Part shown: in pieces, positions 559 through 29,210 of the stretch
Layout: each line of letters starts with the position of its first letter
Numbering within the stretch: position 1 is the first letter of the stretch
Virus record (IMG/VR): IMGVR_UViG_3300033806_000069
Location: 1-33,031 of that record
DNA length: 33,031 bases
Source: a virus
Direction: 5' to 3' (one strand)
Notes under the pieces: generated by a model
What the model saw: the letters and a program-made list of their open reading frames with translations, nothing else
Told to the model about the DNA's origin: nothing
Database searches by the model: none
Program-made: the position numbers and the translations under genes

Positions 559-1389
559 GTGGCGGAGTCTACTCTCTCCCTGTCAGTGACAGACCTGGAG
601 TCCGAGATCGGTCTGTTCCTGGGCTACGGTCGCGGCACCAACGGAGGCGACCCGGCCTGGACCAGTGCCACCTCGGCCGTGATCACGTCCATCCGCAAGA
701 GCGGTGAGCGGCAGTTCTACTTCCCGCCAGCACTCGAGGGGACGGACAGCAGCTACGACTGGTCCTTCCTGAGACCGGTCATTTCGCTGTTGCTGAACAG
801 TGGGGCAACGACCGTGGCTCTGCCAGACGACTTCGGTGGCTTCGAGGGGCAGGCGTACATCTCGGACACGGCCGGGTCGAGCTACTGGCCCGTGCCGCTG
901 GTGAGTATTGGCATTGTCCAGGAGCTGAAGGCCAAGGTGCCTAGCGAGACGGGGCGCCCGAAGTTCCTGGCCTTGCAGCCGCTCAGGCTGTCCATTGGCC
1001 TGGGCCTTGCCGGCAACGCCGGGCAGCGCTTCCAGTTGGTCGTCTTCCCCCAGGCGGACGCTGCCTACACCTTGACGTTCCAGTATTACGTCAACCCGGA
1101 CGCCTTGAACTCGGGCACGAACCCCTACGTCTATGGCGGCATGGCCCACGCCGAGACGGTCCTGGAGTCGTGCTTGGCCATTGCCGAGCAGCGCCTGGAC
1201 GATACAGAGGATGTCCACACCCAGAAGTTCATGGAACGCCTGGGAGCCAGCATCTCGCACGACCGGCGCAACAAGCCGCAACTGCTGGGCTACAACGCGG
1301 ACAAGAGCGATATGAAGGCCCTGCGGCCCGGCACGGCCAGGTGGTGGGAGAACAGCCCCGTGACCTTCAACCAGGTCCAGTATCCCTAG
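559..1389 (+). CDS. Probable head-tail adaptor (gp11/TTPA-like)
   Basis: The start is GTG 559 with GGGAAG at 544-549. The 276-residue product opens with a helical stretch (TDLESEIGLFLGYG) followed by an Ile/Arg segment ending in FYFPP, a layout typical of phage adaptor proteins that sit under the portal. The middle is beta-rich and the C-terminal third holds a helical hairpin (AETVLESCLAIAEQRLDDTE). Podovirus tail tubular protein A and similar adaptors share this helix-beta-helix arrangement, a Trp/Tyr-rich beta core and a length near 200-280 residues. I assign it from architecture and from its place ahead of the nozzle-like gene, not from a diagnostic motif. It would act in virion assembly by closing the head and receiving the tail. 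Confidence 0.6.
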   Translation: MAESTLSLSVTDLESEIGLFLGYGRGTNGGDPAWTSATSAVITSIRKSGERQFYFPPALEGTDSSYDWSFLRPVISLLLNSGATTVALPDDFGGFEGQAYISDTAGSSYWPVPLVSIGIVQELKAKVPSETGRPKFLALQPLRLSIGLGLAGNAGQRFQLVVFPQADAAYTLTFQYYVNPDALNSGTNPYVYGGMAHAETVLESCLAIAEQRLDDTEDVHTQKFMERLGASISHDRRNKPQLLGYNADKSDMKALRPGTARWWENSPVTFNQVQYP

Positions 1390-9896: not shown

Positions 9897-9899
9897 GCC

Positions 9900-11138: not shown

Positions 11139-11148
11139 GGATTAATCC

Positions 11149-11625
11149 ATGAGCAGGAAATACCGCGTAACTTTTGAAAACGTGCTGGTCAGCGCAGCCC
11201 AGGACCTAGTGCAGGTCACCGGGGCGACTGGCAAGGTCTACCGCATCCTGAGGCAGTGGGTCGGCTGTACCGATACCTCGGTAGCCACGGGCCAGATGCT
11301 GCAACTGCGGGCCCGGTTCCTGCCAGCCACCGTGTCGAACGGCTCGGGAGGCACGACAGGGATCACGCCCTCGAAGAACGACCCGGGCGACGCCACCTGC
11401 TCGTCAACTACCTGCTGCATCAACTCGACGAGCAAGGCCACGACGAACGGCACGGCTATCGTGCTCTATGAGAATGGCGTCCATATGTACCAGGGCGACA
11501 TGTGGCGCTATGACGAGCCACCCGTGGTCGGCCCCACTGAGGCGTTCGTGTATGAACTGATGAGCACTGTCTCGGGCACCGTCCACCTGTCCGGAGGCGT
11601 GGAGATCGAGGAGATCGGAGGTTAG
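11149..11625 (+). CDS. Small virion protein of a widespread phage family
   Basis: ATG 11149 follows AAGGA (11138-11142). The 158-residue product starts YRVTFENVLVSAAQDLVQV, then KVYRILRQWVGCTDT. It carries a Ser/Thr/Gly loop around NPC-like DPGDATCSSTT, and ends in SGTVHLSGGVEIEEIGG. This order (VTF..vSVSAAQDL, a short strand about ligand or bonding partner, NxGDA, and a C-terminal sGtlxxEEIG) is a pattern I know from many phage genomes, where the gene lies among tail or capsid structural genes. The family is probably a beta-barrel virion component of unknown detailed role. The pair of adjacent cysteines (TTCCIN) is unusual. Confidence 0.55.
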   Translation: MSRKYRVTFENVLVSAAQDLVQVTGATGKVYRILRQWVGCTDTSVATGQMLQLRARFLPATVSNGSGGTTGITPSKNDPGDATCSSTTCCINSTSKATTNGTAIVLYENGVHMYQGDMWRYDEPPVVGPTEAFVYELMSTVSGTVHLSGGVEIEEIGG

Positions 11626-11627
11626 CC

Positions 11628-12008
11628 ATGGCGGAAAGTAAGACCAGGACGGCCATCCTGGCCGGCGTCACGATGACGGCCGGGTCAGGCAACGTCAGCA
11701 CCGTGGGGCCCGACCTGACCACAGGATGCGGCGCTTCCCTGAGCATCAAGATCACCAACGGTAGCACAGGGCCAACCGTGGCGGCTCAGGCCCAGGTGCA
11801 AGTGGCCAACGACTACAACGGCGGCAGCCCGCACCTGTGGGTAAACTACGGCGGGGCCCTCGTGGCCACTCTGGGTAACAACGTGGTCACCTCGTGGACC
11901 ATCGAAATTTACGAGGCCTGGGCCGCGGTGCAGATTGTCTCAGGGAGCAATACGGTGCAGAACTGCACCATTGATGCGGACATTAGCGTCGTCACGGCAA
12001 GAGCATGA
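11628..12008 (+). CDS. Small beta-rich virion-type protein, 126 aa
   Basis: ATG 11628 is preceded by CGGAGG (11615-11620) that overlaps the previous gene's end. The product is beta-rich and Thr/Gly/Val-rich (AILAGVTMTAGSGNVST, CGASLSIKITNGSTGPTVAAQ). It has a WVNYGG motif and ends IDADISVVTARA. I recognise the general style of short tail-tip or capsid accessory proteins that precede fibre genes, but no named family. It lies two bases after one virion-type gene and three bases before the tail fibre, so all three are likely co-translated and used in the same structure. Confidence 0.55.
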   Translation: MAESKTRTAILAGVTMTAGSGNVSTVGPDLTTGCGASLSIKITNGSTGPTVAAQAQVQVANDYNGGSPHLWVNYGGALVATLGNNVVTSWTIEIYEAWAAVQIVSGSNTVQNCTIDADISVVTARA

Positions 12009-12011
12009 CCC

Positions 12012-14450
12012 ATGCCGATTGCGAAGCCAGCTTGGCCAGTCTCCCAGCGCCGGCATCTCCTAAACCAGGGGCTGGTCCTCTGCCTGCCCTTCACGGAAAA
12101 CGGCGGCACGACCGCCTATGACTTCAGCGGCTATGGCAACCACGGCTCCTTCAATGGCGGCAGCAACTGGGCAGGAGGTTATCAGGGCTCGTGTGTCAGC
12201 CTGAATGGCAGCACGGGCTTCCTTAGCGTCCCGGACAACGCCAGCCTACGCTTCGCCTCGGGGACGCCTCCCATCACGATTGCTGCCTGGGTGAACTGGG
12301 CCGCGTCGACGGAAGCGTACAACTGCATTCTGGCCAAAGAGCATTTCGGTGCCGAAGGCTACACGTTGCTGTTGAAGAGCAATCAGAAGATTGCCTTCTA
12401 TCTGTCGGGCGGCACGACGGTCTCTCAGGACGGCACCAGTGCCACTGTCCCCTTCAATACGCCTACGCACGTTGCCTGCACCTTCGACGGCACGACGGTC
12501 TGTTCCTACATTAACGGCACGCTAAGTTCCAACAGCACGACGGGGTCTTCCTGGGGCGGCATGGTCCACAATGACGCGCTCTGGATCGGCAAATCCGCCT
12601 TTGGCAACAACCGCTGGTTCTCGGGCTCCGTGGACATGCCGATGGTTTGGAGCAGAGCCCTTTCGCCCTACGAAATCAACCTGCTCTACGAAGACTCCTG
12701 GAGTCTGCTGCGGCGCCGGCAGACTTCGTTCATCTTTAGCTATCCGACGACCTCTACCCTTGCGAAGCCAGCCTGGCCAGCATCCCGCAGAGAGCACCCC
12801 CTGGCCCGAGGGCTGATCCTATGCCTGCCATTCGTGGAGAATGGCGGCACGAGCGTCTATGACTTCAGCGGTTATGGCAACCATGGCTCCTTCAATGGCG
12901 GCAGCAGCTGGGTGGGCGGCTACAACGGCTCCTGCGTAAAGCTCAATGGCAGCACTGGCTTCATCAGCGTCCCCGATAGCCCGAGCCTGCGCTTCGCTTT
13001 GGGGAAGAACCCCATTACCATCGCGACCTGGGTCAACTGGCACGCCTCCACGGAGAGCTACAACTGTGTGCTGGGCAAGGAGCACTTCACCACGGACGGT
13101 TATACCCTCCTCCTGAGGAGTGACCAGAAGTTGGCTGTCGCCCTTAGTGCAGGCGGGGCCAGTATCTATCAGGACGGCACCGGCGCCGCGGTCCCGTTCG
13201 ATATACCGACCCACATCGCAGCCGTCTACGATGGGGCTACGATCAGCACTTACATCAACGGGGTGTTCGGCTCGAACACTACAGGCAACGCCGGCAATAA
13301 CTGGGCAATGGCCAACTCGGATGCCTTGTGGATCGGCAAGGGCATCTACGGCAACAACCGCTGGTTCAACGGCTCCATCGACATGCCCATGGTCTGGAAC
13401 AGGAGCCTTACAGCTGCCGAGGTCCAGTGGCTCTACGAGGACTCCTGGGCCATCATGCGCCGGCGGAAGCGGGCGTCGCTCGCCTTCGGGTCGCCTGCGG
13501 CCTTCGATATCTCGTCCCTCCGCGTGCGTCGAGATGAGCCAGAGCCGTTCGTGGGCATCCGGGTCCTGACCCTGGAGCCGCCCATGAGCCTGCGGGCGGC
13601 TTTCCTGGCAGGCTTCACCACGCCCTTGCTCAACCTGGTGATGGTGGACCTGGAGTCCACACGCCGCACCCGGACGCATCAGCAGCAGGCAGCCAACATC
13701 CTTAACTCCCTGATCCGGGCCGGGAACATCGTGCAGACAGGGGTGTCCACCTGGGCCTTCAAGGGGCTGGTCTCCCAGAGCAGGCTCATCACAGCCGGCG
13801 CTGGCCTGTCGGGCGGCGGCCTGCTGTCGAATGACGTCACGATCAGCATGACCCAGGTCGGCGTCCCTGGGACCTACGGCTCCGCAGCAGTCGTGCCTCG
13901 AGTGACGGTTGACGCCTACGGCCGTGTAACTGCAGTTGCCGCTACCAACATCGCCATCACGGAGTCCCAGGTAACCAACCTGACGGCCGACCTGGCCGCC
14001 CTGGCCACAGACAGCCTGGTCGTCCACCTGGCTGGCACTGAGGCAGTCACGGGCGCCAAGACGTTCAGTGCCACGGACGTGAAGCTGGTCCACCTGCGCG
14101 GCAACAGTTCGACCCCTACAGTGACCACGGACACGGGAGCCGGAGCGCATGCTACGGCTTCCGTGGCAGGCACCGACCTGGCCGGCACATTGACCGTCAG
14201 CACGGACAGTGCGGACACGCCGGCCTCCAATGCCACGGTGGCCACCGTGGCCTTTGCCACAGCCTATACAGCGGCGCCGAGAGTCGTCATAATGCCAGCG
14301 AACGCGGCGACCTGGGCCCTGGCCTACGGCAGTATCGTCCTGCTGCAGGCCGACGTGACCACGGCGCACTTCATCCTGAAGTCGTCCAGCACACCGCTGC
14401 CAGCCACCACGACGGCCACCTACCAATGGAACTACCAATGCCTTCAATGA
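12012..14450 (+). CDS. Tail fibre with two LamG/concanavalin-type domains
   Basis: The start is ATG 12012. The 812-residue product has two ~245-residue repeats (from residue ~4 and ~250). Each opens KPAWP.(S)...R..L..GL(V/I)LCLPF and carries YDFSGYGNHGSFNGGS..W, ITIA(A/T)WVNW, a strand with DGT, and a (A/S)LWIGK..(F/Y)GNNRWFxGS strand. These are hallmarks of LamG-like jelly rolls that bind glycans. After residue ~500 comes a fibre shaft: TRRTRTHQQQAANILNSLI, then ITAGAGLSGGG, PRVTVDAYGRVTAV and VVHLAGTEAVTGAKTFSA, which are typical tail-fibre repeats, followed by a C-terminal beta tip. It would bind the host surface. Its stop overlaps the next ATG. Confidence 0.75.
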   Translation: MPIAKPAWPVSQRRHLLNQGLVLCLPFTENGGTTAYDFSGYGNHGSFNGGSNWAGGYQGSCVSLNGSTGFLSVPDNASLRFASGTPPITIAAWVNWAASTEAYNCILAKEHFGAEGYTLLLKSNQKIAFYLSGGTTVSQDGTSATVPFNTPTHVACTFDGTTVCSYINGTLSSNSTTGSSWGGMVHNDALWIGKSAFGNNRWFSGSVDMPMVWSRALSPYEINLLYEDSWSLLRRRQTSFIFSYPTTSTLAKPAWPASRREHPLARGLILCLPFVENGGTSVYDFSGYGNHGSFNGGSSWVGGYNGSCVKLNGSTGFISVPDSPSLRFALGKNPITIATWVNWHASTESYNCVLGKEHFTTDGYTLLLRSDQKLAVALSAGGASIYQDGTGAAVPFDIPTHIAAVYDGATISTYINGVFGSNTTGNAGNNWAMANSDALWIGKGIYGNNRWFNGSIDMPMVWNRSLTAAEVQWLYEDSWAIMRRRKRASLAFGSPAAFDISSLRVRRDEPEPFVGIRVLTLEPPMSLRAAFLAGFTTPLLNLVMVDLESTRRTRTHQQQAANILNSLIRAGNIVQTGVSTWAFKGLVSQSRLITAGAGLSGGGLLSNDVTISMTQVGVPGTYGSAAVVPRVTVDAYGRVTAVAATNIAITESQVTNLTADLAALATDSLVVHLAGTEAVTGAKTFSATDVKLVHLRGNSSTPTVTTDTGAGAHATASVAGTDLAGTLTVSTDSADTPASNATVATVAFATAYTAAPRVVIMPANAATWALAYGSIVLLQADVTTAHFILKSSSTPLPATTTATYQWNYQCLQ
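12021..13480 (+). repeat. Intragenic duplication of the LamG-type domain
   Basis: The coding segment starting near 12021 is repeated from near 12758, a period of about 740 bases. Conserved landmarks (GCGAAGCCAGC, and the segment encoding DFSGYGNHGSFNGGS) remain similar at DNA level while other parts have diverged. Both copies are in frame and end with an R-R-R tail before the following segment (LLRRRQ and MRRRK). It indicates a tandem duplication followed by divergence in a receptor-binding protein. Confidence 0.75.
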
Positions 14451-15076
14451 GTGACAGCTATAGCGGGAATGGCCGGCTCATCCCCGAGGACGCTCCTGAG
14501 GCCGACTACCCTGGACAGCCAACAGGGATGTCCCAGCCTCAGCCCATGCAGCCATCCGGGCCAGCGCCTGCCATGGACTTCAACGCCCCGCAGCAGCAGC
14601 AGCTCACACGCTACATCAACGCCGAGGCCGCGTTGCAGGCCAAGGTCGGCACGGGGGAGTACGACGCCAACGAGCCAGGGGTCAAGGAGGCCCTGCAGAG
14701 GCTGACGCAGCTGAAGCAGCCCCTGATGCAAGCCAAGCAGCAGCAGCAGGCCAAGCAGATGCAGGAGGCCCTCCAGCAGGGCATGCACATGGCGGCCATG
14801 CAGAAGGCGATCCAGAACGTGCATCTGGCCAGCGCTGCCAAGAACTTGCCTGGACAGGTGATGACCTTCAACCACCTGACGGATGATGGGGAGTACCTGC
14901 AGCAGCAATATTACCCACAGCAGAGCGCCAAGGGGGACGTCACCTGGCATCCCGTGGAATACGCCACGCACCACGCACGCGCGGACCGCAGGCAGGACCA
15001 TCGCCTGAAACAACAGGAGATGCTGCTGGACTCGATGCAGCCACCAGCTACGCCTGGAGAGGGAGGGTCTGAGTGA
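14447..15076 (+). CDS. Gln-rich coiled-coil protein, candidate ejection protein
   Basis: I use ATG 14447, which overlaps the fibre stop (ATGA), over in-frame ATGs at 14426 and 14438. The 209-residue product has a Pro/Gln N-terminus and then a long helical, Gln-rich coiled coil (LMQAKQQQQAKQMQEALQQG). A basic C-terminal helix follows (THHARADRRQDHRLKQQEML). It contains no recognisable enzyme motif. It stands before two larger proteins of similar helical, Gln/Ala-rich style, and the set looks like the internal or ejected proteins of podoviruses. Virion assembly chaperone is an alternative. Confidence 0.5.
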   Translation: MSDSYSGNGRLIPEDAPEADYPGQPTGMSQPQPMQPSGPAPAMDFNAPQQQQLTRYINAEAALQAKVGTGEYDANEPGVKEALQRLTQLKQPLMQAKQQQQAKQMQEALQQGMHMAAMQKAIQNVHLASAAKNLPGQVMTFNHLTDDGEYLQQQYYPQQSAKGDVTWHPVEYATHHARADRRQDHRLKQQEMLLDSMQPPATPGEGGSE

Positions 15077-16680
15077 TGGCCGACTATGACGAGGACCAAT
15101 CCAACGAGGACTACACCGACCCCATCCAGGAGGAGCAGAAGGCCCAGCAGCGGAAGCAGAAGGAAGAGCAGCGCGCTGCCATGGCTGAGTATCAGTCTCA
15201 AGATGAGCCGCTGCCAGGGTCTGCCAGACGCCCTCCTCCCAGGGTGTCTGGGCCGCTGATCGAGAACTACACCGATCCCATCCAGGAGGAGCAGAAGGCC
15301 CAGCAGCTAGCCCAGAAGGAAGAGCAGCGTGCTGCCATGGCTGGATATCAGTCTCAAAACGAGCCGCTGCCAGGGCCTGCCAGAGGCATGCCCAGCCTTC
15401 CGCCTGGGGCTGCGGGTCCCATGCCAGCCCGCGGAGATGATGCGACCCAGGGCGGCGCAGCTCCAGCCGAGCCTCCTGGGCCGACAACACCAGCTCCTGG
15501 CGCTCCAGCCCAAGCCGCACCGCAGCAGGCCGAGAAGCCGCACCGGATGACGGTCTTCAACGGGCCCAACCAGGAGACCTGGGTCTTCCCCACGGAAGCG
15601 CAGCAGGCGACATTAGGTCGCGGCCCCATGCGGGAGGAGGACTACCAGAAGGCGCTCCAGGCCGGCCAGGGAGGCCCCGGAAAGGCTCCAGGGGCCACGG
15701 GAGCCCTGAGCGAGGACTGGGACCTACCCAGGCCACCTAGGGACCCGAGCAAGGCGGACTTTGACATCTGGAGACAGCGTGCCGAGGAACGGCACAAGGC
15801 GCAGCACCCGGAGCCAATGCGTCAGGCGGCCAACCAGCAGATTGACTTCCTGAACCGGCAGCTTCGCCAGCCGCATCTGAGCCAGCATGACCGGCAGGCT
15901 CTCATGCACCAGATCGATGCCATCAAGGCAAACTACAATCATCAGCAGCAGAAGTATTTTGACGCGGTCAACCACAGCGTCGACTTGCAGGAGGCACACT
16001 TCCGCGGCAATGAGAAGGAGCGGGCCGGCCTGGAGCGGGACCTGTACCATCGCCGCCAGCAGGCCCAGGTGGAAGCCGCCAAGATGGTGTTCAAAGACTC
16101 TGAGGAAGAGCGCAAGTACCAGCGATCCATCGCCATGACGCCCAAGGACCAGATGGAGGCGCTGCACAAGGCCACGGACATGCTCATGAAGCAGCGGCAT
16201 GAGATCGACAAGATCAACTCGGCTGGCGGCAACCAGGTTGCGATCCCGCCCCATCTGAAGGACATGGCCAGCATACAGGAGGCCGCGAAGAATATGGTCG
16301 GCGACTGGGTCACGTCGAGCGGCGTGGAAGGCGGCCTGGGGACCGTGCCGCAGCGTACAGGCAAGGGAGGCGGCGAGGGGAACGCGCCTGCTGGCGGCAC
16401 GGTGCGCACAGCGGCCCAGGATAAGGCGGCCCTGGCCAAGCTGGGCCAGGAGATGCGGGATATGGGGGGCGCGGACAATCAGGCCTTATGGCTTTCCAGT
16501 CTCAAGGAACTGGAAGACATGATCGGCCCGGATGGCGTCCAGTCCGAGCGGCGGCAGGAGTACAACGCCAAGCTGAAGCAGATCATGCAGCGGCTAAGAA
16601 CGGCCCAGGAAGAAAAGAAGCAGAAGCCGAAGCCGAAGCCGGCCCCCCAGGTAGAAGAGGCGACCACTTTATTCGGGTAA
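15076..16680 (+). CDS. Charged helical protein, candidate ejection protein
   Basis: I use ATG 15076, which overlaps the previous TGA (TGATG) and has GGAGGG at 15062-15067; GTG 15073 is possible. The 534-residue product opens with an acidic-basic helical segment duplicated 52 codons apart (YTDPIQEEQKAQQ). A Pro/Ala linker follows, then a long charged helix region (residues ~220-360), and a Lys/Pro tail (KKQKPKPKPAP). No catalytic motif is visible. Composition, size and its place before the giant protein match internal virion proteins that form part of an ejection conduit, by inference. An extended Glu/Gln/Lys coiled coil could bridge head and tail. Confidence 0.5.
   Translation: MADYDEDQSNEDYTDPIQEEQKAQQRKQKEEQRAAMAEYQSQDEPLPGSARRPPPRVSGPLIENYTDPIQEEQKAQQLAQKEEQRAAMAGYQSQNEPLPGPARGMPSLPPGAAGPMPARGDDATQGGAAPAEPPGPTTPAPGAPAQAAPQQAEKPHRMTVFNGPNQETWVFPTEAQQATLGRGPMREEDYQKALQAGQGGPGKAPGATGALSEDWDLPRPPRDPSKADFDIWRQRAEERHKAQHPEPMRQAANQQIDFLNRQLRQPHLSQHDRQALMHQIDAIKANYNHQQQKYFDAVNHSVDLQEAHFRGNEKERAGLERDLYHRRQQAQVEAAKMVFKDSEEERKYQRSIAMTPKDQMEALHKATDMLMKQRHEIDKINSAGGNQVAIPPHLKDMASIQEAAKNMVGDWVTSSGVEGGLGTVPQRTGKGGGEGNAPAGGTVRTAAQDKAALAKLGQEMRDMGGADNQALWLSSLKELEDMIGPDGVQSERRQEYNAKLKQIMQRLRTAQEEKKQKPKPKPAPQVEEATTLFG
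15106..15384 (+). repeat. Direct repeat, 123-base copies, period 156
   Basis: Bases 15106-15228 recur at 15262-15384 with high identity, separated by 33 bases. They encode (D/N)YTDPIQEEQKAQQ followed by QKEEQRAAMA(E/G)YQSQ and EPLPG(S/P)AR. The period is exactly 52 codons. High DNA identity implies a recent duplication or conversion within the gene. Confidence 0.85.
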
Positions 16681-16695: not shown

Positions 16696-19600
16696 ATGGC
16701 TATTCCCGCCGAGGTTTGGCAACAGGCTGGCATCCCCGACGACGCCTCCGAGGCTGACAAGTCTGCGGCCTTGAGCAAGCTGTACCCAGAGTACACGCAG
16801 CCCAAGGCGGAGGGGGCTCCGCCCGTCGATTTAGATCAGATTGAGGCACAGCTCACCCTGGCGGGCGGCAAGGACGACTGGCACTTCAAGGACGCCTACC
16901 CTGGAACCCAGGAAGCCCAGCGACGGGTGGTGGACTACCTGCACACGCACGCCATGGCCGAGTCCCCCTGGGCCCAGGTGCAGAAGGGGTTGCGGCAGAA
17001 CTTCCCGGAAGTAGACCCCTACAGCGTCAAGGGGGGCTACGATGAGCTGGCCAAGCAGACCCAGCAGGAGAAGGCAGACAAGGCATGGGAGGGCTATGAG
17101 GTCCCCTGGGACTGGGCCCGGAACGTCATCCCCGGCTATTCCTACGGCAAGAGATGGGGGATGGAGTCGGCCTATGGGGAGGCCAAGCGCCGCGTGGATG
17201 CAGGCAAGGCTACTCCGGAAGACTACAAGGCCATTGCCTACTACCACAAGGTCACGGGCAAGGAAGAGGAGCACCCCTGGATCACAGCGGCTGCACGGCT
17301 GCCCGCCCTGTTCGTTGAGACTGCTGCTGGCGGTACGGTCGGCGGGGGCGTCTTTCGCGGTGCTAGCCTGCTGGCCAAGACGGGCCGCTTCCTGACTACC
17401 GTGGCAGCTACGCCGTCGTTCTATGCCGAGGAGTGGGCCCACAACAACGTCGAGGCGGGGCGCCACCCGCTCGACTTCAAGGGCCTGCCAGCGGCCTATG
17501 CCATGGGGGCTGCCGAGATCGCCATCCTCGGCGGCGCCAGCAAGGCGGGCTACCTTATTCCTGGTGAGGGCCTGGGTCGGGCCTTTGCTCGCTTTGGCAC
17601 CAGCCTGGGGAGCCAGTTCCTGGCACAGCGTGCTACGGACCTCCTGGCCTTTGCTGGCGGCCTGCGGTCGACCTATGGGCCGATCCAGGACGCGATTAAA
17701 GGCGACTGGGGGAAAGCGGCCCAGAGAACTGTGATGGACCTGGCCACCTTTGGCCTGTTCGCTGGCCTGCACCAGAGCGAAGCCAACCGGGCTGGGATTG
17801 CGCGTGGCAAGGCCGCGGAGACGGCTGCTGCTCTGAAGGGCGGCTCCGAGAAGGCGGCCCAGACGGACGCCGAGTGGTCCATGCCAGCCCAGGACACTCC
17901 CACAGCGCCAGCCACGGGGGTCCCTAACCTTTCCAAGGCAGCCATGGAGGCGTTTAACGCGGCCCTGGACGAGGGTGGCGCCGCGGGGCTCAAGCGCGAC
18001 TTCGCCATGGCCCGGCTGGCGAAGATGCACGAGCAACTGGAGGGGCTGCTAGCCAGGAACCAGAACCCCACCCGTGAGGACGTGCTGGACCTGTTCAAGG
18101 ACGTACCCGCGGACACCAAGCGCAGGGCTTATGCAGAGGCCCTGGCCGACATGTATCCCAAGGCGAGCCAAGCACCTCCAACACCTCCAGGTGGGGCCCC
18201 GCCAACGCCGCCAGGCCCTCCAACACCTCCAGCCCCAGGTGCTCCTCCAGGCCCACCTCCAGGCGGAACGCCGCCAGCTCCGCAAGCTCCAGCAGCTCCA
18301 GCAGCTCCAGCAGCTCCGGCAGCTCCGGTGGCTCCGGTAGCTCCAGCAGCTCCAGCTCCAGCAGCTCCAGCTCCAGCTCCAGCTCCAGCAGCTCCAGCAG
18401 CTCCAGCTCCAGCTACCACGCCGGGAGAGCATCTTATCGCGATGATGCAGAATGTCTTTGGCAACATGGAGCTCAAAGGCGAGAGCACCATCGAGTCAAC
18501 TATTGCCAAGGGCAACCGGACCATACGCCTCCATTTCAGCCCTGAGCAAGAGGCTCGCCATGTTGTCGAGGTAGAGTTCAGCGGCGGTGGCATGGAGGAG
18601 GGTGGTGGGGGCGACCTGTTCCGGGGACTGATGAAGGTGGCCAGACGCCTGTATGACATGGGCATGGGGGTTGAGTTCCTGGCAACTGACAGCAACCGTC
18701 CTGTAGCTGCGGAGGGCACGCTCAAGGCGGGGAGCCGTGGCGCCAAGGAGCGCTGGGAGGGCTACGACAAGCTCCTCCGAAAAGTCGGCTTCAAGCAGGA
18801 GAGCGCGCCAGCAGGCCCGGACGACCTCATGGGCAAATACGTCTATCGCCCCAAGGCCAAGGAGGCCGCACGTACTGATGAAAGCACCAAAGCGCAGCGG
18901 GAAGAAGCTCAAGGGCCTGCACCTGCAGAAGCCGAAGGGGGGCCTGGGGCGCAAGGCGCCGAAGGGCAGCCAGGGCGGCCAGGGCAAGGCGCCACGGCCC
19001 CAGCGGGGGCAGGCGCCGCTGAGCAAGCCGTCCCGGGGGCAGAGCGGGTCACAGCTGGGCCAGGACAGCCAGAGCAACCAGGGCAGCCCCCTCCAGAGCC
19101 CGCAGGTGGGGGCGCCCAGCCTGTCCCAGCTGGGAGGCCTGGGGCCGAGCCAGGGGCTCCAGCCGGGCGACAGGGAGCCGGAGCCGGAGCCCAGCCCACC
19201 GGGGCCGGACGACCTGGGGCCCAGCTGACTCCTCTGGAAGACCAAGTCGTCTCGATGGTTAACCAGGGGATGAGCTTCGCGGACATCGCCAGCTATTACC
19301 AGGATGAATACACACCGGTCCAGATTGAGAAGATAGCCAACGGCGCCTTTGACAAGCTGGGCCGTCCTCCGGAGCCAGAGCGCCTGTTCCCCGAGCTGAC
19401 ACAGCGAGAGGAGGACGTCCTGGTGCTGCGGGTCGCGATGGGCCAGGACCTGCATGTCATCGGAGAGCAGTTCGGCGTCTCGAAGCAGCGGATCCAGCAG
19501 ATCGAGAAGAAGGGGCTCCTGAAAAAGGGCATCGAGCGCAGCATCGACGATATCGTTGATGACGATGTCAAGCTGCAGAACCTTGTCGAGAATATCGCCC

Positions 19601-22600
19601 AGGGGCCTGTCGAGTACCCGGAGGACTCGGGGCTGAGAGAGGCGCATCGAGACGCCTCCAGTCGCACAGGTAGAGTAGAGAGGAAGCTAACCGGTCTCGT
19701 TAACGCCATGGCGGAGGAGGCAAAGCATGGAAAGCTTACCCCTGAATCTGAGGCAAAATATCTCGCCGAAATTGCAGGATGCCATGCAGAGCTTGACGAC
19801 ACGGGTCCAAAAAAGAAAGGCAAACCTACAAAAGCTGGGCCAGGCGCTAGGGCTCCTGCAGGCGCAGCCGCAGCCGAAGGTGCAGCCGGGGTCGAGGCAC
19901 CCGTTCGACCTGCCGCTGGCTACGAGTTACCAGAAGGCGGAGGCGCCAGTCAAGCTGCCGCTGCGGAACAAGGACCTGGGCAAGCTGCCGCCGCGGGTGC
20001 CCAGGCTACGGCTGCCCCAGGCGTACCTGAAGCCGCCGGCGGTAAGCTGAAGGGCTTCCTGGGTGAATCGGGCCAAGGCGATCCCTTCTGGCCAATCACG
20101 CTAGGGAGATGGCTGTGGTCGCGCTTTGGGGAAAACCCGCCCAAAGACCTTGACCAGGTTGAGGTGCGCCATGATCCCGAGGAGCGACACCACGACCTCC
20201 TGGTTAACGGCGAGAGCAAGGGCCTGCTGACTCTGGACCGGCCAAAGGCCGCTGGCATCGAGGTGCGCGCAGCCAACAAAATTTTCCCCGGTATCGTCCA
20301 GGAGGGTGAGACGGTCTGCCGGCTGTCCGGTATTGAAGTCGAGAAGGACGCACGAGGCCAAGGCTTGGGCCAGTTGCTGTTACTCAAGGGGCTGGTCCAA
20401 AACGGGGCGGATTGGGTCTATAACTCCCAGCAGTCCCGCTCGGCCACCAACGCTATCAAGGCCCTGGGCCGCAAGGGGTTCCTGGAGCTGCACTGGGAGA
20501 AGGAGCCGGGCCCGAACGAGAAGAGCGGCATCCTCCTGGCCCGCGTTACACCCGAGGGCCGCAACGTGGCCCAGGGCGGCCCGCCCTCGCCTGCCACACC
20601 TGTGCCGCCCGGCCAGGGCCCCATCGGCGCCTTGGTCAACTTCCTGGTTGGCGAGTCAGGTTTAGGGAATGCCTTTTGGCCTAGCGCTGTCTGGGACGAA
20701 GTCGTGGGCCGAGCCAGCCGCGGTTGGCAGGTCTCCCAGGAGGTGGCCGCGAAGGTCGGTTATTCTCTGCGGGAGTTTGCTCAGGAAATGGGTCCCCGGA
20801 CTATTGCCCTGTCCCGAACCGTTGGCGACTACCTGGCCAAGCTCAACTCGGCCCAGGGCTGGGCGGACATGCTGCATGGGGACATGGTCATGCGGGTCAT
20901 GGGCCCCAACCAGCCCGAGGCGAAAAAGGTGCTGTTCGGTAATGCTTTCGTCGAGGAAAGGTTCCGCTATGCGGAGGCGGGGTGGCTTGATCAGTCGCGG
21001 CAGCAATCAGCCATCGCCGCGGCCGCGAAGCAGCTGGCGCGCACCCCAGGCATAACGCCCGAGGAGAAGGCGCAGCACCTGCAGCAGGCGCGGCAGGCCC
21101 AAAGGAATGCCACGAAGGCCCTGGACCACTATCAGTATTTCAAGGATAGGACCGTACTTGGCAAGCGGAACTCCGCTATTGCCAACCAGGCGGAATACCA
21201 GGCGGTGCTGGCCAACCCCGAGTACCAGAGCGCCACGGGGGCGGCACGCAACAATGGCAACTGGGGCATCCACATGGTGCCTGTCATGGAAGAGGCCCTG
21301 CGTCGCGAGCGTGGCATGAGCCCTGACGACCCCATTGACTCGTTCACGCAGATCCCTGGCCGGGCCATGAACATGAGGGCCTACCAGGAGGGGGACGCTC
21401 TGCCGCCGACCGCAGTCATAATCCAGGATGTGCCGACTTCGGCTCCAATCAAACCCATTCGCCCAGGACAGGTAGGCTCCCCAGCCGAGCCCGAGCTAGG
21501 CGGCGCCCCCGTGGGCACGGGCAGCGTGAACCCGCTTAAGAACCAGCGTCTGCGTAAGGACCCCTTTGACAACGTCTTCAAGGGCAATGCCTATGCGTAT
21601 GACATCGACCTCGGGAACATTATTGGCAACACCCTGAGGACCCGGCTGGTGGGAGCGGCCCGGGCGGAGTACGTCCGGGCCGCCAGCGGCGTGTCGCCTT
21701 TTGGGCCCGTACAGCCCGTGGGCGAGTGGGGGCCGCCGGGCGGCAAGCGGGGTGAGGGAGTGGTGGGACCTGAGCTGACCAAGGCGTTTGAAATCCCCAA
21801 CGTCAAGCCCCCCGAAGGCAGCCAGGCCGCGGCCAAGGGGGAAACCTCGTTCTTCTTCTGGGACAAGGGGGCATTCGATGAAGCCTACAAGGCATTGAAC
21901 CTGGGCAAGACCTCTGAGCTGACGAATGCTAGCAACCTGGTGCTTGGCGTCTATAACCGCTTTAACCTCGCCGGCGTGGCGGAGGGCCTCACGCACGTAA
22001 AGAACCTCGGCAAGGTCGTCTGGGCCGACCCGGTCCACAACATCCCGAGGATCTGGGATTACACCAGCAAGGTCCTGAGCCACGACCCAGCCGTCCGCGC
22101 TGACGTGCTCGATCTGGCGCGGCGGGGCATGATGAAGACGTTTAGCACCCTGGAGGGGGCCAAGGGACAGGGCCTGTTCGGCGGCGGCCCCTGGGACCTC
22201 ACACGCTACGCCACCCAGGCGCTCGATGTCATACAGCAAGCAGCCAGGCTAACGGCCCGCGATACGTTCTACGACCTCGTTAAGCGCGGCCTGAAGGTGA
22301 ATGCCGAGTCCGACCTGCGGGACTTCGTCCAGGGCATGACGGGCAACTACTACCGTGGCGCGCAGGGAGACCTGGTCCGTTTCCTCAAGGACTCAGGCAT
22401 CGGGCCCTACGCCGTGGCCAACACCACGTTCCTGACGCAGGGCATCCGGGCCTGGACGGGGGGCACGGGAGGGCGTGCTCCCAACTGGCAAGCCGACCTG
22501 AGGCTGCGGGGCGAGATGTTCCTGCGGGCTGTCGTCGGCGGCGCCGTGGTGGCCAGCATCTGGAACTACCTGCGCTGGGGGCAGGCGTTCCCTCAGGGGA

Positions 22601-23085
22601 CCAAGCTTTCCGACATCAAGCTGTACGAGACCGACGAAGGCAAGCCGAAAGTCTTCAGCCTCTGGGGCCTGACGGGTGCCGAGCGGGGCGCCAAGCCAAC
22701 TAGCGTCGATGCCATCATGACCAGCATCCGCAAGGGGGAAACCCTCCCCCAGTTCTTCGACCGCTATCGCACGGACCTGGAACGGACGGCCATGATGCCG
22801 TTCGAAGGACCAGGTGTGTCGTTCTTCCATACTGCCGCGACCGGGGAAGGGTCGTTTGGACAGCGGTTATCCCCCAAGTGGACGAAGCCCCAGCTGCAAA
22901 CGCATTCGCAGAGCCTGAGCGACTTCACAGCGGCCATGGCGCATGCCAACCCCACCTATGCGGCCCTGTTCGCAGGCGGCAGCTTCCCGAAGTTCACCCC
23001 TGCCGGGGAGCTGAAGCGCAACCAGTACTGGAAGTGGTCCGAGGTCTTCGGCGGGCTTGGACCTCGGGAGAGGTCACTGAAATAA
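16696..23085 (+). CDS. Giant multidomain candidate polyvalent/ejected virion protein
   Basis: AAGGA at 16686-16690 precedes ATG 16696; the product is 2129 residues. In order: helical N-terminus with small-residue-rich hydrophobic stretches (~200-310); Pro/Ala linker (~491-575); a GNAT-like fragment (~578-715, ending GYDKLLRKVGF); an Ala/Gly/Pro linker; tandem helix-turn-helix (~845-960) whose second copy reads LTQREEDVLVLRVAMG then IGEQFGVSKQRIQQIE, as in sigma-70 region 4; another linker; a clearer GNAT domain (~1150-1290) with acetyl-CoA loop ARGQGLGQLL; then a long helical region with one membrane-like segment (~1941-1966). FLGESGxGxxFWP-type motifs flank the GNAT domain (~1119 and ~1316). 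Such mosaics are known as polyvalent proteins delivered with phage DNA. Ejection is inferred from neighbours. Confidence 0.7.
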   Translation: MAIPAEVWQQAGIPDDASEADKSAALSKLYPEYTQPKAEGAPPVDLDQIEAQLTLAGGKDDWHFKDAYPGTQEAQRRVVDYLHTHAMAESPWAQVQKGLRQNFPEVDPYSVKGGYDELAKQTQQEKADKAWEGYEVPWDWARNVIPGYSYGKRWGMESAYGEAKRRVDAGKATPEDYKAIAYYHKVTGKEEEHPWITAAARLPALFVETAAGGTVGGGVFRGASLLAKTGRFLTTVAATPSFYAEEWAHNNVEAGRHPLDFKGLPAAYAMGAAEIAILGGASKAGYLIPGEGLGRAFARFGTSLGSQFLAQRATDLLAFAGGLRSTYGPIQDAIKGDWGKAAQRTVMDLATFGLFAGLHQSEANRAGIARGKAAETAAALKGGSEKAAQTDAEWSMPAQDTPTAPATGVPNLSKAAMEAFNAALDEGGAAGLKRDFAMARLAKMHEQLEGLLARNQNPTREDVLDLFKDVPADTKRRAYAEALADMYPKASQAPPTPPGGAPPTPPGPPTPPAPGAPPGPPPGGTPPAPQAPAAPAAPAAPAAPVAPVAPAAPAPAAPAPAPAPAAPAAPAPATTPGEHLIAMMQNVFGNMELKGESTIESTIAKGNRTIRLHFSPEQEARHVVEVEFSGGGMEEGGGGDLFRGLMKVARRLYDMGMGVEFLATDSNRPVAAEGTLKAGSRGAKERWEGYDKLLRKVGFKQESAPAGPDDLMGKYVYRPKAKEAARTDESTKAQREEAQGPAPAEAEGGPGAQGAEGQPGRPGQGATAPAGAGAAEQAVPGAERVTAGPGQPEQPGQPPPEPAGGGAQPVPAGRPGAEPGAPAGRQGAGAGAQPTGAGRPGAQLTPLEDQVVSMVNQGMSFADIASYYQDEYTPVQIEKIANGAFDKLGRPPEPERLFPELTQREEDVLVLRVAMGQDLHVIGEQFGVSKQRIQQIEKKGLLKKGIERSIDDIVDDDVKLQNLVENIAQGPVEYPEDSGLREAHRDASSRTGRVERKLTGLVNAMAEEAKHGKLTPESEAKYLAEIAGCHAELDDTGPKKKGKPTKAGPGARAPAGAAAAEGAAGVEAPVRPAAGYELPEGGGASQAAAAEQGPGQAAAAGAQATAAPGVPEAAGGKLKGFLGESGQGDPFWPITLGRWLWSRFGENPPKDLDQVEVRHDPEERHHDLLVNGESKGLLTLDRPKAAGIEVRAANKIFPGIVQEGETVCRLSGIEVEKDARGQGLGQLLLLKGLVQNGADWVYNSQQSRSATNAIKALGRKGFLELHWEKEPGPNEKSGILLARVTPEGRNVAQGGPPSPATPVPPGQGPIGALVNFLVGESGLGNAFWPSAVWDEVVGRASRGWQVSQEVAAKVGYSLREFAQEMGPRTIALSRTVGDYLAKLNSAQGWADMLHGDMVMRVMGPNQPEAKKVLFGNAFVEERFRYAEAGWLDQSRQQSAIAAAAKQLARTPGITPEEKAQHLQQARQAQRNATKALDHYQYFKDRTVLGKRNSAIANQAEYQAVLANPEYQSATGAARNNGNWGIHMVPVMEEALRRERGMSPDDPIDSFTQIPGRAMNMRAYQEGDALPPTAVIIQDVPTSAPIKPIRPGQVGSPAEPELGGAPVGTGSVNPLKNQRLRKDPFDNVFKGNAYAYDIDLGNIIGNTLRTRLVGAARAEYVRAASGVSPFGPVQPVGEWGPPGGKRGEGVVGPELTKAFEIPNVKPPEGSQAAAKGETSFFFWDKGAFDEAYKALNLGKTSELTNASNLVLGVYNRFNLAGVAEGLTHVKNLGKVVWADPVHNIPRIWDYTSKVLSHDPAVRADVLDLARRGMMKTFSTLEGAKGQGLFGGGPWDLTRYATQALDVIQQAARLTARDTFYDLVKRGLKVNAESDLRDFVQGMTGNYYRGAQGDLVRFLKDSGIGPYAVANTTFLTQGIRAWTGGTGGRAPNWQADLRLRGEMFLRAVVGGAVVASIWNYLRWGQAFPQGTKLSDIKLYETDEGKPKVFSLWGLTGAERGAKPTSVDAIMTSIRKGETLPQFFDRYRTDLERTAMMPFEGPGVSFFHTAATGEGSFGQRLSPKWTKPQLQTHSQSLSDFTAAMAHANPTYAALFAGGSFPKFTPAGELKRNQYWKWSEVFGGLGPRERSLK
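18286..18414 (+). repeat. GCTCCAGCA-type microsatellite coding a Pro/Ala linker
   Basis: Imperfect GCTCCA and GCTCCAGCA units run for about 130 bases inside the giant gene and encode AAPAAPAAP, then APAPAAPA. Unit lengths are multiples of three, so copy-number change would lengthen or shorten the linker without a frameshift. The linker separates the N-terminal region from the first GNAT-like fragment. Confidence 0.85.
18878..19228 (+). CDS. Possible overprinted ORF 1 inside the giant gene
   Basis: In the +1 frame relative to the giant gene, ATG 18878 (AAGGAGG at 18859-18865) opens a 116-codon ORF. It begins MKAPKRSGKKLKGLHLQKPK and ends EPEPEPSPPGPDDLGPS. Within this interval third codon positions are nearly all G or C in this frame (AAG, CTG, GGC, CAG, AGC), while the main frame has many A- or T-ending codons, unlike its neighbours. 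The TGA falls where recognisable main-frame domain coding resumes. The main-frame product here is an Ala/Gly/Pro linker, and such linkers can create this codon pattern by composition alone, so it may be an artefact. Confidence 0.3.
   Translation: MKAPKRSGKKLKGLHLQKPKGGLGRKAPKGSQGGQGKAPRPQRGQAPLSKPSRGQSGSQLGQDSQSNQGSPLQSPQVGAPSLSQLGGLGPSQGLQPGDREPEPEPSPPGPDDLGPS
19727..20050 (+). CDS. Possible overprinted ORF 2 inside the giant gene
   Basis: ATG 19727 has a strong SD, GGAGGAGG at 19713-19720, with six bases to the start. It opens a 107-codon ORF in the +1 frame of the giant gene. It reads MESLPLNLRQNISPKLQDAM, a helical and basic stretch (VQKRKANLQKLGQALGLLQ), and a Pro/Leu-rich basic tail. 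Sequence diversity (Phe, Tyr, His, Asp present) is more protein-like than the main-frame Ala/Gly linker over the same bases. G/C-ending codons dominate the second half. Like the first overprinted candidate it ends right where main-frame domain sequence resumes (KLKGFLGESG). It could encode a small second protein, or be a by-product of linker composition. Confidence 0.4.
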   Translation: MESLPLNLRQNISPKLQDAMQSLTTRVQKRKANLQKLGQALGLLQAQPQPKVQPGSRHPFDLPLATSYQKAEAPVKLPLRNKDLGKLPPRVPRLRLPQAYLKPPAVS

Positions 23086-23105: not shown

Positions 23106-23133
23106 TTGACAACTCAGTTCCACCTGTTACAGT
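23106..23133 (+). promoter_or_regulatory. Sigma-70-type promoter candidate
   Basis: A perfect -35 box TTGACA (23106-23111) and TACAGT (23128-23133, 4 of 6 to TATAAT) are separated by 16 bases in the only substantial gap (91 bases) between the giant gene and the HTH gene. It would start a rightward transcript about 35 bases before the SD AGGAGA at 23164-23169. This fits a separate early-type control of the replication module, recognised by the host polymerase. Confidence 0.55.
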
Positions 23134-23176: not shown

Positions 23177-23404
23177 ATGTGCGTCGACGAAGCCGAGGTC
23201 GTGGCCTGCGACCTCACCACGGGAGATGTTGCCAGGATGGTTGGCGTAAGGACCAGTACGGTCCAGGACTGGATGACCATGGGCGTCGTGATTGACGGCA
23301 TGCGGGTGTCCCTGCGGTACCAGAGGTACGGCAGCTGGCGGCGTACCTGCCGGGCCTGGGTGGACGAGTTCCTGGAGGCATGCCGGCGGGGAGGCGAGGC
23401 ATGA
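23177..23404 (+). CDS. Small helix-turn-helix DNA-binding protein
   Basis: ATG 23177 has AGGAGA upstream. The 75-residue product contains a MerR/excisionase-type helix-turn-helix, LTTGDVARMVGVRTSTVQDW (residues ~13-32), followed by a wing-like segment (RVSLRYQRYGSWRRTCRAWV) and a final helix. Short proteins of this layout serve as excisionases, Cox-type switches or transcription regulators. Its first place behind a promoter suggests it controls this or the neighbouring transcription unit. No integrase is in the window, so an excisionase role has no support. The stop overlaps the next ATG (ATGA). Confidence 0.7.
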   Translation: MCVDEAEVVACDLTTGDVARMVGVRTSTVQDWMTMGVVIDGMRVSLRYQRYGSWRRTCRAWVDEFLEACRRGGEA

Positions 23405-23754
23405 AAGGTAATGACGAAGACTGCAACGAGGAGTATGAGGAGGGATACATCGAGGACGACGAGGAGTCAGGCAACGACTACGCGGCGCGGGCCCAGTTCT
23501 TGCCCATGCCGGACCATACGCTCCTCAAGGTCATCCCGGGTGACAACCTCGAAGCCTCCTGCGGGGAGGTCATCGCTGTGGGTTCTTCCTCGCGGCACTG
23601 GCCTCACCTCCGCGTGGGCACCTATTTCGTTTTTGACCATGGGGTTGGCACGCGCATCAAGGTCAACGGTGTGCGACACATTGTGATCCGCAACCGGGAC
23701 CTCCTGGGAGTCTTTTACATCCCTGACGATAGCACCAATGGAGAGACATCATGA
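23401..23754 (+). CDS. GroES-like (Cpn10 fold) protein lacking the mobile loop
   Basis: The start at ATG 23401 overlaps the previous stop. The first ~27 residues are strongly acidic (DEDCNEEYEEGYIEDDEE). Residues ~33-110 follow the co-chaperonin pattern: PMPDHTLLKV for the PLxDRVLVK strand, then GEVIAVG, LRVGTYFVFDHGVGTRIKVN, and IRNRDLLGVF for the final E-x-D-I-L strand. Between LLKV and GEVIAVG there are only about a dozen residues, where GroES has ~20 more carrying the GGIVL mobile loop that grips GroEL. Phage T4 gp31 and related proteins show that phages use such folds for capsid folding, but loss of the loop argues against GroEL binding. Its placement in a recombination operon is unusual. 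Cpn10 similarity is from recognised motifs. Confidence 0.6.
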   Translation: MKGNDEDCNEEYEEGYIEDDEESGNDYAARAQFLPMPDHTLLKVIPGDNLEASCGEVIAVGSSSRHWPHLRVGTYFVFDHGVGTRIKVNGVRHIVIRNRDLLGVFYIPDDSTNGETS

Positions 23755-25887: not shown

Positions 25888-27343
25888 GTTGGCCACCGGC
25901 CTGGGCAAGACGGTGGTCTTTTCCTTCCTGGCCGACGAGTGGCCTGGCAAGGTGTTGATCCTGGCACACCGTGAGGAGCTGGTACAGCAGGCATGTGAGA
26001 AGATCAACATCATCACCGGCCGGAGTGTGGCGGTCGAGATGGGGCGAAGCTATGCGCGTCATCACATGGATTACGAAAACACGAAGATCACGGCCGGCTC
26101 CATCCAGACGTTCTCGATAACCGAACGTCGGGAGAAATTTAAGCCGGACCTCTTCTCTCTCATCATTGTAGACGAGGGGCACCATGCGCCGGCGCGTTCC
26201 TACCGGCGTGTCCTCGACTACTTTGAGACGGCCCGGAAACTGTTCGTTACCGCGACCCCCAAGAGGCACGACAAGTTGGCCCTGGGCACGGTGTGCGAGT
26301 CGGTTAGCTACCAGTATGGTATCGAGCGAGCTGTGCAAGACGGCTGGCTGGTGCCGATCCGGCAATGCATGGTCAAGGTGCATGGGCTCGACTATTCCAG
26401 GGCGCGTACCTTGGCCAAAGACTTCAACCAAGCGGACCTCGAGGCGATCTTACTTCAAGAGGAGCCGTTGCACCGTATGGTGAGTTCGGCCCAGGAGCTG
26501 GTAGGGGACCGGCAGACGCTCTGGTTCTGCGTGAGCGTAGCGCACGCTAGAGCTATGGCGGGTGTACTAGGTCGGTACGTGCCTGCGGAGCGCGTGGCCT
26601 TCTTGTCGGGGGAGACCCCTGCGGAAGAGAGGGCCAAGAAGGTCCGGGACTACAAGGCGGGCAAGCTGAGGCACCTGTTCAACTGTGCATTGTTTTTGGA
26701 GGGCTTTGATGCTCCCACAACCTCGGCTATCGCCATGTGCCGGCCGACCAAGAGCCTGCCGTTGTATACGCAGGTGCTAGGCCGTGGCACACGGCCGCTA
26801 CCTGACGTGGTCGATGGCCTGGAGGATGCCGAGGACCGGAAAGAGGCAATCCGCATGTCTGACAAGCAAGATATGTTGGTCGTCGACTACTGCGGGAATG
26901 CTGGCAAACACAAGATAATCCAAGCGTTAGACGTCCTGGGTGGCCTATACCCTGAGGACGTCCTGGAGTTGGCCCTGGCCAACCAGGAGGAGGACGAGGA
27001 CCACGAGGAACGCGACGTTGAGGCTGCCCTCCAGCGCGCTGAGGCGGAGTTGGCTCTCCTGGGCGAATGCAGTGAGATGCGCAAGGAGATCACGGCCAAG
27101 GTGGCCTACGCCGCCCAGGAAGTGTCGCCCTTCATCCGCAGGCACACCGACAGCAGTGCCAAGCCGCCGCCCGCCTACAACGGACAGGGGCTTGAGCTGT
27201 GCTCCTCCAAACAGGCCGGCTACATCATGTACCTGGCCCGCCGGGCTGGCATGCCCAATTGGAGGATCGACGACGCCCTGCGCATGACCAAGCGCCAGGC
27301 TGGAGCAACGATTGAGAAGCTGAAGGCAATGGTTGATGTTTAA
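25808..27343 (+). CDS. SF2 DNA helicase (DEGH box)
   Basis: I choose ATG 25808 with GGAG at 25795-25798 rather than the upstream TTG. The 511-residue product has an N-terminal Q-type RPYQLEA, Walker A ATGLGKT (29-35), motif Ia LILAHREELVQQA, Walker B VDEGHH (121-126), motif III TATPKR (148-153), and a second RecA domain with LFNCALFLEGFDAPTTSA and motif VI QVLGRGTRP (322-330). These define a superfamily 2 helicase of the type III restriction or UvsW-like group. It probably unwinds forks or recombination intermediates. A C-terminal ~150-residue extension includes Glu-rich helix and a final helix repeat (IDDALRMTKRQAGATIEKL). The stop codon lies in copy 2 of the 28-base element. Confidence 0.85.
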   Translation: MKLRPYQLEAKKAVWMDLETKGSTLLELATGLGKTVVFSFLADEWPGKVLILAHREELVQQACEKINIITGRSVAVEMGRSYARHHMDYENTKITAGSIQTFSITERREKFKPDLFSLIIVDEGHHAPARSYRRVLDYFETARKLFVTATPKRHDKLALGTVCESVSYQYGIERAVQDGWLVPIRQCMVKVHGLDYSRARTLAKDFNQADLEAILLQEEPLHRMVSSAQELVGDRQTLWFCVSVAHARAMAGVLGRYVPAERVAFLSGETPAEERAKKVRDYKAGKLRHLFNCALFLEGFDAPTTSAIAMCRPTKSLPLYTQVLGRGTRPLPDVVDGLEDAEDRKEAIRMSDKQDMLVVDYCGNAGKHKIIQALDVLGGLYPEDVLELALANQEEDEDHEERDVEAALQRAEAELALLGECSEMRKEITAKVAYAAQEVSPFIRRHTDSSAKPPPAYNGQGLELCSSKQAGYIMYLARRAGMPNWRIDDALRMTKRQAGATIEKLKAMVDV

Positions 27344-27365
27344 CCGCGACTCATAGAGGAGCGCG
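27338..27365 (+). other. Repeated 28-base element, copy 2
   Basis: The element reads GTTTAACCGCGACTC, then ATA, then GAGGAGCGCG. It begins within the last codon of the helicase, supplies its TAA stop, and ends 15 bases before the GTG start at 27381. It is the only substantial gap between the helicase and the following small genes, so it could be a promoter or operator for them. The arms CTC and GAG around the 3-base centre, with flanking CGCG blocks, allow an imperfect hairpin. Confidence 0.8.
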
Positions 27366-27380
27366 TCCTGGAGCGTAGCC

Positions 27381-28139: not shown

Positions 28140-28494
28140 GTTCTTAGCCCAGGTGCTACAACTGGCCAAGTTGTACGGCTGGAAGACGTTCCACTGTCGC
28201 CCAGCGCGTACAGCCAACTCCTGGCGCACGCCAGTGCAGGGAGATGGGAAAGGGTTCCCGGACCTCGTATTGGTCAAGGGGGACCGCCTGCTGTTTGCCG
28301 AGTTGAAAGCCAGCAAAGGACGGACGACCCTGGAACAGGACGATTGGCTAGCAGCCCTCGGTGCTGTCCCAGGGGTCTCCGTCCACCTATGGCGTCCTGA
28401 GGACTGGGGCGCCATACTCACGCAGATCGTACCCTCCCCGGGTACGGGGCCCCGGTCCGGCTCTGCCTCCCAGGATAGGGCTGCGTCCTTATAG
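28126..28494 (+). CDS. VRR-NUC domain nuclease
   Basis: I choose GTG 28126, since AGGAG lies at 28113-28117 eight bases ahead; GTG 28108 is less well placed. The 122-residue product is a compact PD-(D/E)xK nuclease: E3, RTPVQGDGKGFPD with Asp46, LLFAELK with Glu59 and Lys61, then Gln71 in TLEQDDWL, and a late VHLWRPEDW. This motif order defines VRR-NUC proteins, known as phage Holliday-junction or structure-specific nucleases. With the ERF protein and helicase it completes a recombination set. The C-terminal tail after residue ~105 is Pro/Ser/Gly-rich. Its 3' end runs into the convergent leftward gene (6-base overlap). Confidence 0.8.
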   Translation: MTECKFLAQVLQLAKLYGWKTFHCRPARTANSWRTPVQGDGKGFPDLVLVKGDRLLFAELKASKGRTTLEQDDWLAALGAVPGVSVHLWRPEDWGAILTQIVPSPGTGPRSGSASQDRAASL

Positions 28495-28710: not shown

Positions 28711-28853
28711 CGTTATGCCCTCCTTTTACTCGCCTCTCTGCCAAATGGCAGTTTGGGGCCTCAAACCCAGTAAAAATAGGGCTTCCATGCCTTGAGCGTG
28801 AAAAAACTGGTCAGCGCGTTTTGTACCAACTTTGTTATACAAAACAGTCTTGT
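28711..28853. promoter_or_regulatory. Gap with three inverted repeats, operator-like
   Basis: Between two leftward genes lie CTGCCA-AA-TGGCAG (28738-28751), GTTTG/CAAAC arms around GGGCCT (28751-28766), and TTTTGTA (28819-28825) with TACAAAA (28838-28844) 12 bases apart. The last pair flanks GTTATA, which on the minus strand reads TATAAC and resembles a -10 box, but no -35 box is correctly spaced. These may be operators, a promoter for the 28710 gene or a weak terminator. Confidence 0.4.
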
Positions 28854-29180: not shown

Positions 29181-29210
29181 GATTGCGTCTCCATGAAAAG
29201 GGCCATGCTG

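Follow-up and report, generated by a model that had tools for sequence, protein, structure and literature searches.

Judged from its sequence, the giant protein encoded by this virus is an orphan with an unusual combination of domains. A helix-turn-helix (HTH) of the sigma-70 region 4 family appears directly after a likely second HTH of the LuxR/NarL type, and a predicted GNAT fold follows further along the same chain. We propose that the gene may encode a polyvalent-type protein that is carried inside the virion, ejected, and accessory to host RNA polymerase, a reading whose chances we consider evenly balanced. The stretch of DNA analysed (hereafter the window) spans all 33,031 bases of an IMG/VR record; it has 63% GC, and no tRNA was found in it. 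No portal, capsid or terminase gene turned up in the window ORFs scanned, so the record is probably a fragment of the viral genome. A near-identical contig of 11.9 kb (L003, IMGVR_UViG_3300033805_000012) matches window positions 313-12152 at 99.5%. The features discussed below are collected in Table 1.

The gene is a single intact frame, as the sequence-only reading of this DNA had proposed. AAGGA lies upstream of the ATG, and GC content is 74% at third codon positions vs 51% at second positions, a bias expected of coding sequence when the genome has 63% GC. Three stretches rich in Pro, Ala, Gly and Gln (at about residues 493-576, 733-838 and 1035-1120) divide blocks of ordinary composition. 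The block between the first two resembled a second GNAT domain by eye only; it gave no significant profile or sequence match, and a GNAT there is at most a tentative possibility. A short motif, FL(V)GESGxGxxFWP, precedes the GNAT block and recurs ahead of the C-terminal block; it is perhaps a domain-border or processing signal. This motif was seen by eye; BLASTP of the protein against itself found no internal repeats. Pfam and PHROG profile searches gave no family match to the C-terminal region (residues 1316-2129). Searches of the protein turned up no transglycosylase, peptidase, ART or vRNAP domain, and it has no strong membrane segment (best 19-residue hydropathy, 1.43).

Table 1. Coordinates of the giant gene, its parts and other features of the window (aa, residues of the giant protein).
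Feature	Position	Strand	Basis or remark
REP-like palindrome, three copies	330-358; 27338-27366; 32748-32775	-; +; +	
Head-tail adaptor, SU10 type (podovirus-like)	559..1389	+	PF24175, 29.4 bits (cut-off 27)
216-aa Gln-rich protein, candidate internal virion protein	14426..15076	+	Position only; no informative match
535-aa Gln/Ala-rich protein directly upstream of giant gene, candidate internal virion protein	15073..16680	+	Position only; no informative match
Giant multidomain protein (P0001), 2,129 aa	16696..23085	+	ATG start, no internal stop
Pro/Ala-rich linker, aa 493-576	18172..18423	+	Up to 92% A/P/G/Q/E in 50-aa windows
Globular segment between two linkers, aa 577-732, ending YDKLLRKVGFK	18424..18891	+	No convincing database match
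Gly/Ala/Pro/Gln-rich linker, aa 733-838	18892..19209	+	Composition
Likely LuxR/NarL (GerE)-type HTH, aa 839-896	19210..19383	+	Model fold; Pfam GerE sub-threshold
Sigma-70 region 4 HTH, aa 900-943	19393..19524	+	Pfam, PHROG, NCBIfam and PDB sequence matches
Helical hairpin of two long helices, aa 980-1034	19633..19797	+	pLDDT 80-91 over aa 992-1031
Ala/Gly-rich linker, aa 1035-1120	19798..20055	+	Composition
FLGESGQGDPFWP, first copy of short recurring motif	20056..20094	+	By reading
GNAT-fold domain, aa 1154-1285	20155..20550	+	Sub-threshold Pfam; model fold
Acetyl-CoA loop R-x-x-G-x-G (ARGQGLGQLL), aa 1219-1228	20350..20379	+	Sequence
FLVGESGLGNAFWP, second motif copy, start of C-terminal region aa 1316-2129	20641..20682	+	By reading
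GroES-like co-chaperonin, first gene past giant gene	23380-23754	+	PF00166 above cut-off

Profile and sequence comparisons put the match to sigma region 4 far above what chance would give. Pfam PF04545 (Sigma70_r4, cut-off 24.1 bits) scores 34.9 bits against the whole protein (E 1.1e-8) and 43.1 bits against a 162-residue piece, residues 834-995 (E 3e-11). PHROG 351, 'RNA polymerase sigma factor', was matched with an E of 2e-8; sigma factors are the best NCBIfam and PHROG matches of the region, and region 4 of RpoD/SigA ranks first in a sequence search of the PDB (E 1e-4). The sequence-only reading had called LTQREEDVLVLRVAMG (residues 901-916) followed by IGEQFGVSKQRIQQIE (residues 922-937) close to the region 4 consensus and had named the lack of a match to sigma-4/HTH profiles as one outcome that would refute its idea; these scores, above the Pfam cut-off, go in its favour.

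The HTH shows the region 4 pattern IGxxFGVSxxRIxQIE. Its recognition helix reads VSKQRIQQIE vs VTRERIRQIE in Escherichia coli RpoD. In RpoD numbering, R584 is replaced by K and both E585 and R588 by Q, with R586 and Q589 kept; E585 and R588 are positions known to read the -35 element. From these residues, DNA binding by the sigma-4 HTH is credible, and the DNA sequence bound is likely to be altered relative to that of RpoD. The AlphaFold2 model of this stretch is weak, with a pLDDT of about 50-61.

Could the protein serve as a sigma factor? A Pfam scan of the whole chain and of its pieces returned region 4 and no region 2. Because no region 2 was found, the protein, as far as its sequence tells, is not itself a sigma factor, and we reject the idea of a full one. 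We likewise set aside a split sigma factor with region 2 encoded elsewhere in the window: none was found in the other ORFs scanned of this fragmentary record. Region 4 without region 2 cannot melt or open a promoter alone. By analogy with T4 gp33, which holds the beta flap of RNA polymerase, region 4 alone could hold the flap, or it could hold DNA.

The HTH that precedes region 4 came from structure prediction. In an AlphaFold2 model of residues 832-1305 (474 residues), computed from the single sequence, pLDDT is about 80 over residues 842-891. Foldseek placed RcsB first for this HTH, with a probability of 0.99 but an E of 0.42. VIA-align also gave RcsB, with Z 7.7 over 56-58 residues, followed by NarL, LiaR, GerE, VraR and SdiA, and Pfam GerE was weakly matched at the site, below cut-off. 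Since Z values near 7-8 are common among small helical domains, we grade the assignment as likely only. On this model a LuxR-type HTH likely lies directly ahead of the sigma-4 HTH, giving a tandem HTH, and it is likely an addition to the sequence-only reading, which had missed such a domain.

The tandem HTH might do no more than anchor the protein on phage DNA, serving in packaging, in ejection or in shielding the genome as it enters, without contacting RNA polymerase; its sigma-4 likeness would then reflect shared HTH ancestry. This is the alternative that survives best, and we hold it as a tentative but serious possibility. From sequence, sigma-4-like helices are also present in phage proteins unlike full sigma factors, such as one of 227 residues with Cys clusters (L020) that carries VSRQRIQQIE. 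Terminase small subunits and a PHROG of HTH DNA-binding proteins are matched weakly, and a tandem LuxR-type HTH has no known place in sigma factors. Sigma region 4, however, scores far above any other HTH family. The VSRQRIQQIE helix also occurs within an ordinary sigma factor of 269 residues (L019).

The evidence for the GNAT fold is of two kinds. In the sequence, R1220-G-Q-G-L-G1225 fits the acetyl-CoA loop [RQ]-x-x-G-x-[GA], which is intact. Pfam GNAT matches are sub-threshold (16.2 bits vs 20.7 and 16.7 vs 27; best E 0.01), and GNAT-clan models make up four of the five Pfam families among the matches listed, all below cut-off. The second kind is structural. Because the GNAT part failed in the 474-residue model, with pLDDT under 50, residues 1131-1302 were folded alone with AlphaFold2, again from the single sequence with no alignment. 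The resulting model has a pTM of 0.58 and a mean pLDDT of 59, with the first strands (residues 1131-1188) below 50. Its best Foldseek match in the PDB is the N-terminal acetyltransferase Ard1 (E 4.5e-4), and the best 50 PDB chains are members of the GNAT superfamily, acyl-homoserine lactone synthases, which share the GNAT fold, or proteins carrying such a domain. VIA-align ranks the C-terminal domain of mycobacterial ICL2 and Rv1916 at the top (Z 9-10, 133-136 residues, 3.1-3.5 A), followed by many GNATs at Z 5-7. Several weak matches in the viral library are viral acetyltransferases. Alba-type VIA-align matches (Z 5.5-6, 83-86 residues) are partial, covering the C-terminal half only, and were discarded. 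The GNAT domain claimed earlier is very likely: the loop and the fold match agree with it, the latter from a model without alignment, but the Pfam cut-off was not reached. Structure prediction, which that reading had proposed as a check, returns GNAT folds, and we regard the fold as supported by a moderate model.

Whether the domain is an enzyme is less clear. Some GNAT folds sense acetyl-CoA without catalysing a transfer, and the C-terminal domain of ICL2 is of this regulatory, acetyl-CoA-sensing sort. Since this is the best fold match, catalysis is only putative. A non-catalytic sensor or a relic, to which both the ICL2 and Rv1916 match and the sub-threshold Pfam scores would point, strikes us as somewhat unlikely: the R-x-x-G-x-G loop is unbroken, and the matching folds also include many catalytic GNATs.

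Why might such a protein be ejected? On the + strand, the gene order runs from the SU10-type adaptor through tail-type genes, which include a Gly-rich protein and a protein with two concanavalin-like lectin domains, to two Gln-rich proteins and the giant ORF. The giant gene thus closes a late run of tail genes on the same strand, which opens with the adaptor. Phage SU10 has its adaptor as gp11 and five ejection proteins as gp20-24 (PMC9509320). The giant gene is therefore placed as an ejection-protein gene would be, and from this position its product is probably injected with the viral DNA. We infer this from gene order, not homology; no homologue of a known ejection protein was found for it. 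Downstream, also on the + strand, lie genes for the GroES-like protein, an ERF annealing protein, a ParB-like protein, a ResIII/DEAD helicase and a VRR-NUC nuclease.

Other parts of the window deserve brief mention. A nozzle-like gene is apparently split between 5791-6657 and 6453-9896, with a Gly-rich (PF21722) block followed by the remainder in another frame; its start may lie within 5791-6657, and an inserted domain could explain the split. This region is also spanned by the near-identical contig L003. The protein of 11149-11625 was matched to a DNA polymerase (PHROG 22619) at E 0.005, which we dismissed as chance. On the minus strand, 28489-30034 holds several short ORFs that resemble real genes and have no assignment; apart from these, the right end of the window has few clear genes.

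Phage polyvalent proteins join unrelated domains in one chain and are predicted to be packaged and injected; RimI-like GNATs and the occasional HTH are among their domains (Iyer et al. 2017, PMC5512222). The present protein resembles them in being a giant chain that carries a GNAT fold and an HTH among unrelated domains. Two unrelated domains, the sigma-4 HTH and the GNAT fold, share the chain, where two or more define the class, and the gene lies beside virion genes, with the adaptor and tail genes upstream on the same strand. In contrast to polyvalent proteins, their peptidase, ART, methylase and LPD domains were not found here by Pfam, the sequence is unrelated to anything searched, and a pair of the sigma-4 and likely LuxR-type HTHs is added. 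The word 'sigma' appears nowhere in the survey's main text, and the sigma-4/LuxR/GNAT combination is absent from the survey (PMC5512222).

The gene could instead be a tail component, as no homologue ties it to the capsid interior. Its position within a run of tail genes and the large part of its length that matches nothing (residues 1-492 and 1316-2129) would suit a structural protein of the tail or head that does not enter the cell and has borrowed its domains as building blocks, but it is hard to see what purpose a DNA-binding pair and an acetyltransferase fold would serve outside the cell, and we think this improbable.

Comparison with other systems helps to place the proposed ejection protein. 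Like N4 virion RNA polymerase, which is ejected and starts early transcription (PMC12633501), and the SU10 ejection proteins, it is large and sits in a short-tailed-phage gene order, ejection here being predicted; unlike them, it has no polymerase domain and no detectable homology. With RpoD/SigA and the minimal single-HTH sigma factors described in jumbo phages (PMC7824862) it shares the region 4 HTH and its sequence pattern, whereas the absence of region 2, the 2,129-residue chain and the likely LuxR-type HTH ahead set it apart. Rac, a GNAT of phiKMV-like phages, acts on the alpha subunit of host RNA polymerase (PMC7552054). Both are phage proteins predicted to be GNATs, likened by fold class, and the giant protein, too, could conceivably act on host RNA polymerase; Rac, however, is a separate gene product and not a domain of a giant protein.

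Searches for relatives were negative throughout. Neither the whole protein nor its pieces had homologues in 50,697 phage records; the sigma-4 piece matched mainly sigma-factor genes or unannotated records, with a lowest E of 0.001. No homologue was found in IMG/VR by a pattern scan with exact 8-residue words, which distant relatives can escape, or in GTDB genomes. Among 397 genomes of the class of the Planctomycetia MAG there was none; per-genome E values of 4e-4 to 0.005 we take as chance over 397 genomes. The collections searched hold no relatives to show that the sigma-4 and GNAT domains are kept together.

A 29-nt palindrome, GTTTAACCGCGACTC-loop-GAGGAGCGCG, occurs in three copies in the window, where 0.35 copies of its 13-nt core would be expected with up to two mismatches. 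In a set of 84,980 bacterial and archaeal species, each represented by a single genome, the strict form occurs in only two, both Planctomycetota MAGs. A looser form has 47 copies in one of these two (G002; reversed control, 0) and occurs in 5 of 100 genomes of the same order. We take this sharing of the palindrome between the window and Planctomycetota MAGs as good evidence from sequence that the host is probably a member of that phylum. Another viral contig (L004) also carries the palindrome and has no detectable gene in common with the window. In L003, an extra copy (236-282) lies just ahead of the adaptor gene, at the site corresponding to 548-555 of the window; identity between the two contigs is 95.8% to its left and 99.97% to its right. 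Such a step hints at a mobile hairpin or a recombination point.

How might the protein act? On the proposal of an ejected accessory protein, it would be packaged in the virion and leave the head with or before the DNA, delivering the tandem HTH and the GNAT domain into the probable Planctomycetota host. There the HTH pair would most likely bind DNA, and the sigma-4 unit may touch the beta flap of RNA polymerase, favouring early viral promoters. The GNAT domain would bind acetyl-CoA and probably acetylate a protein near the DNA-bound site, such as RNA polymerase or a nucleoid or ribosomal protein. In this role the protein would assist host RNA polymerase rather than being a sigma factor. Points that weigh against the proposal are the altered recognition helix (Q for both E585 and R588), the weak model of the sigma-4 stretch, the lack of a strong membrane segment and the absence of any known ejection-protein homologue or relative from the searches.

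The sequence-only reading took the protein to be probably delivered with the DNA, which gene order and domain architecture make plausible. It went further, suggesting that the domains could 'reprogram host transcription and acetylate host targets'. This is speculative because region 4 without region 2 cannot open a promoter alone, because sigma-4-like HTHs are also found in phage proteins that are not full sigma factors, and because a GNAT fold can be a non-catalytic sensor. In its strongest form, a pre-made transcription hijacker would be ejected whose LuxR-type and sigma-4 pair docks on the beta flap at early promoters and whose fused acetyltransferase modifies polymerase or nearby host proteins at entry. 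We doubt that this is so. A host-like promoter, TTGACA-16-TACAGT with TG before the -10, lies at 23106-23133 (+) between the giant and GroES-like genes; the site is weak, and four promoter-like sites were found vs 3.1 expected.

If the proposal is true, a phage with no known virion RNA polymerase would package a modifying enzyme together with a ready-made domain that directs RNA polymerase. This would be a third way, beside N4 virion RNA polymerase and T4 Alt, to act on host transcription before viral genes are expressed. To our knowledge the phages of Planctomycetota have hardly been studied, and the protein would be an injected effector from a virus of that phylum.
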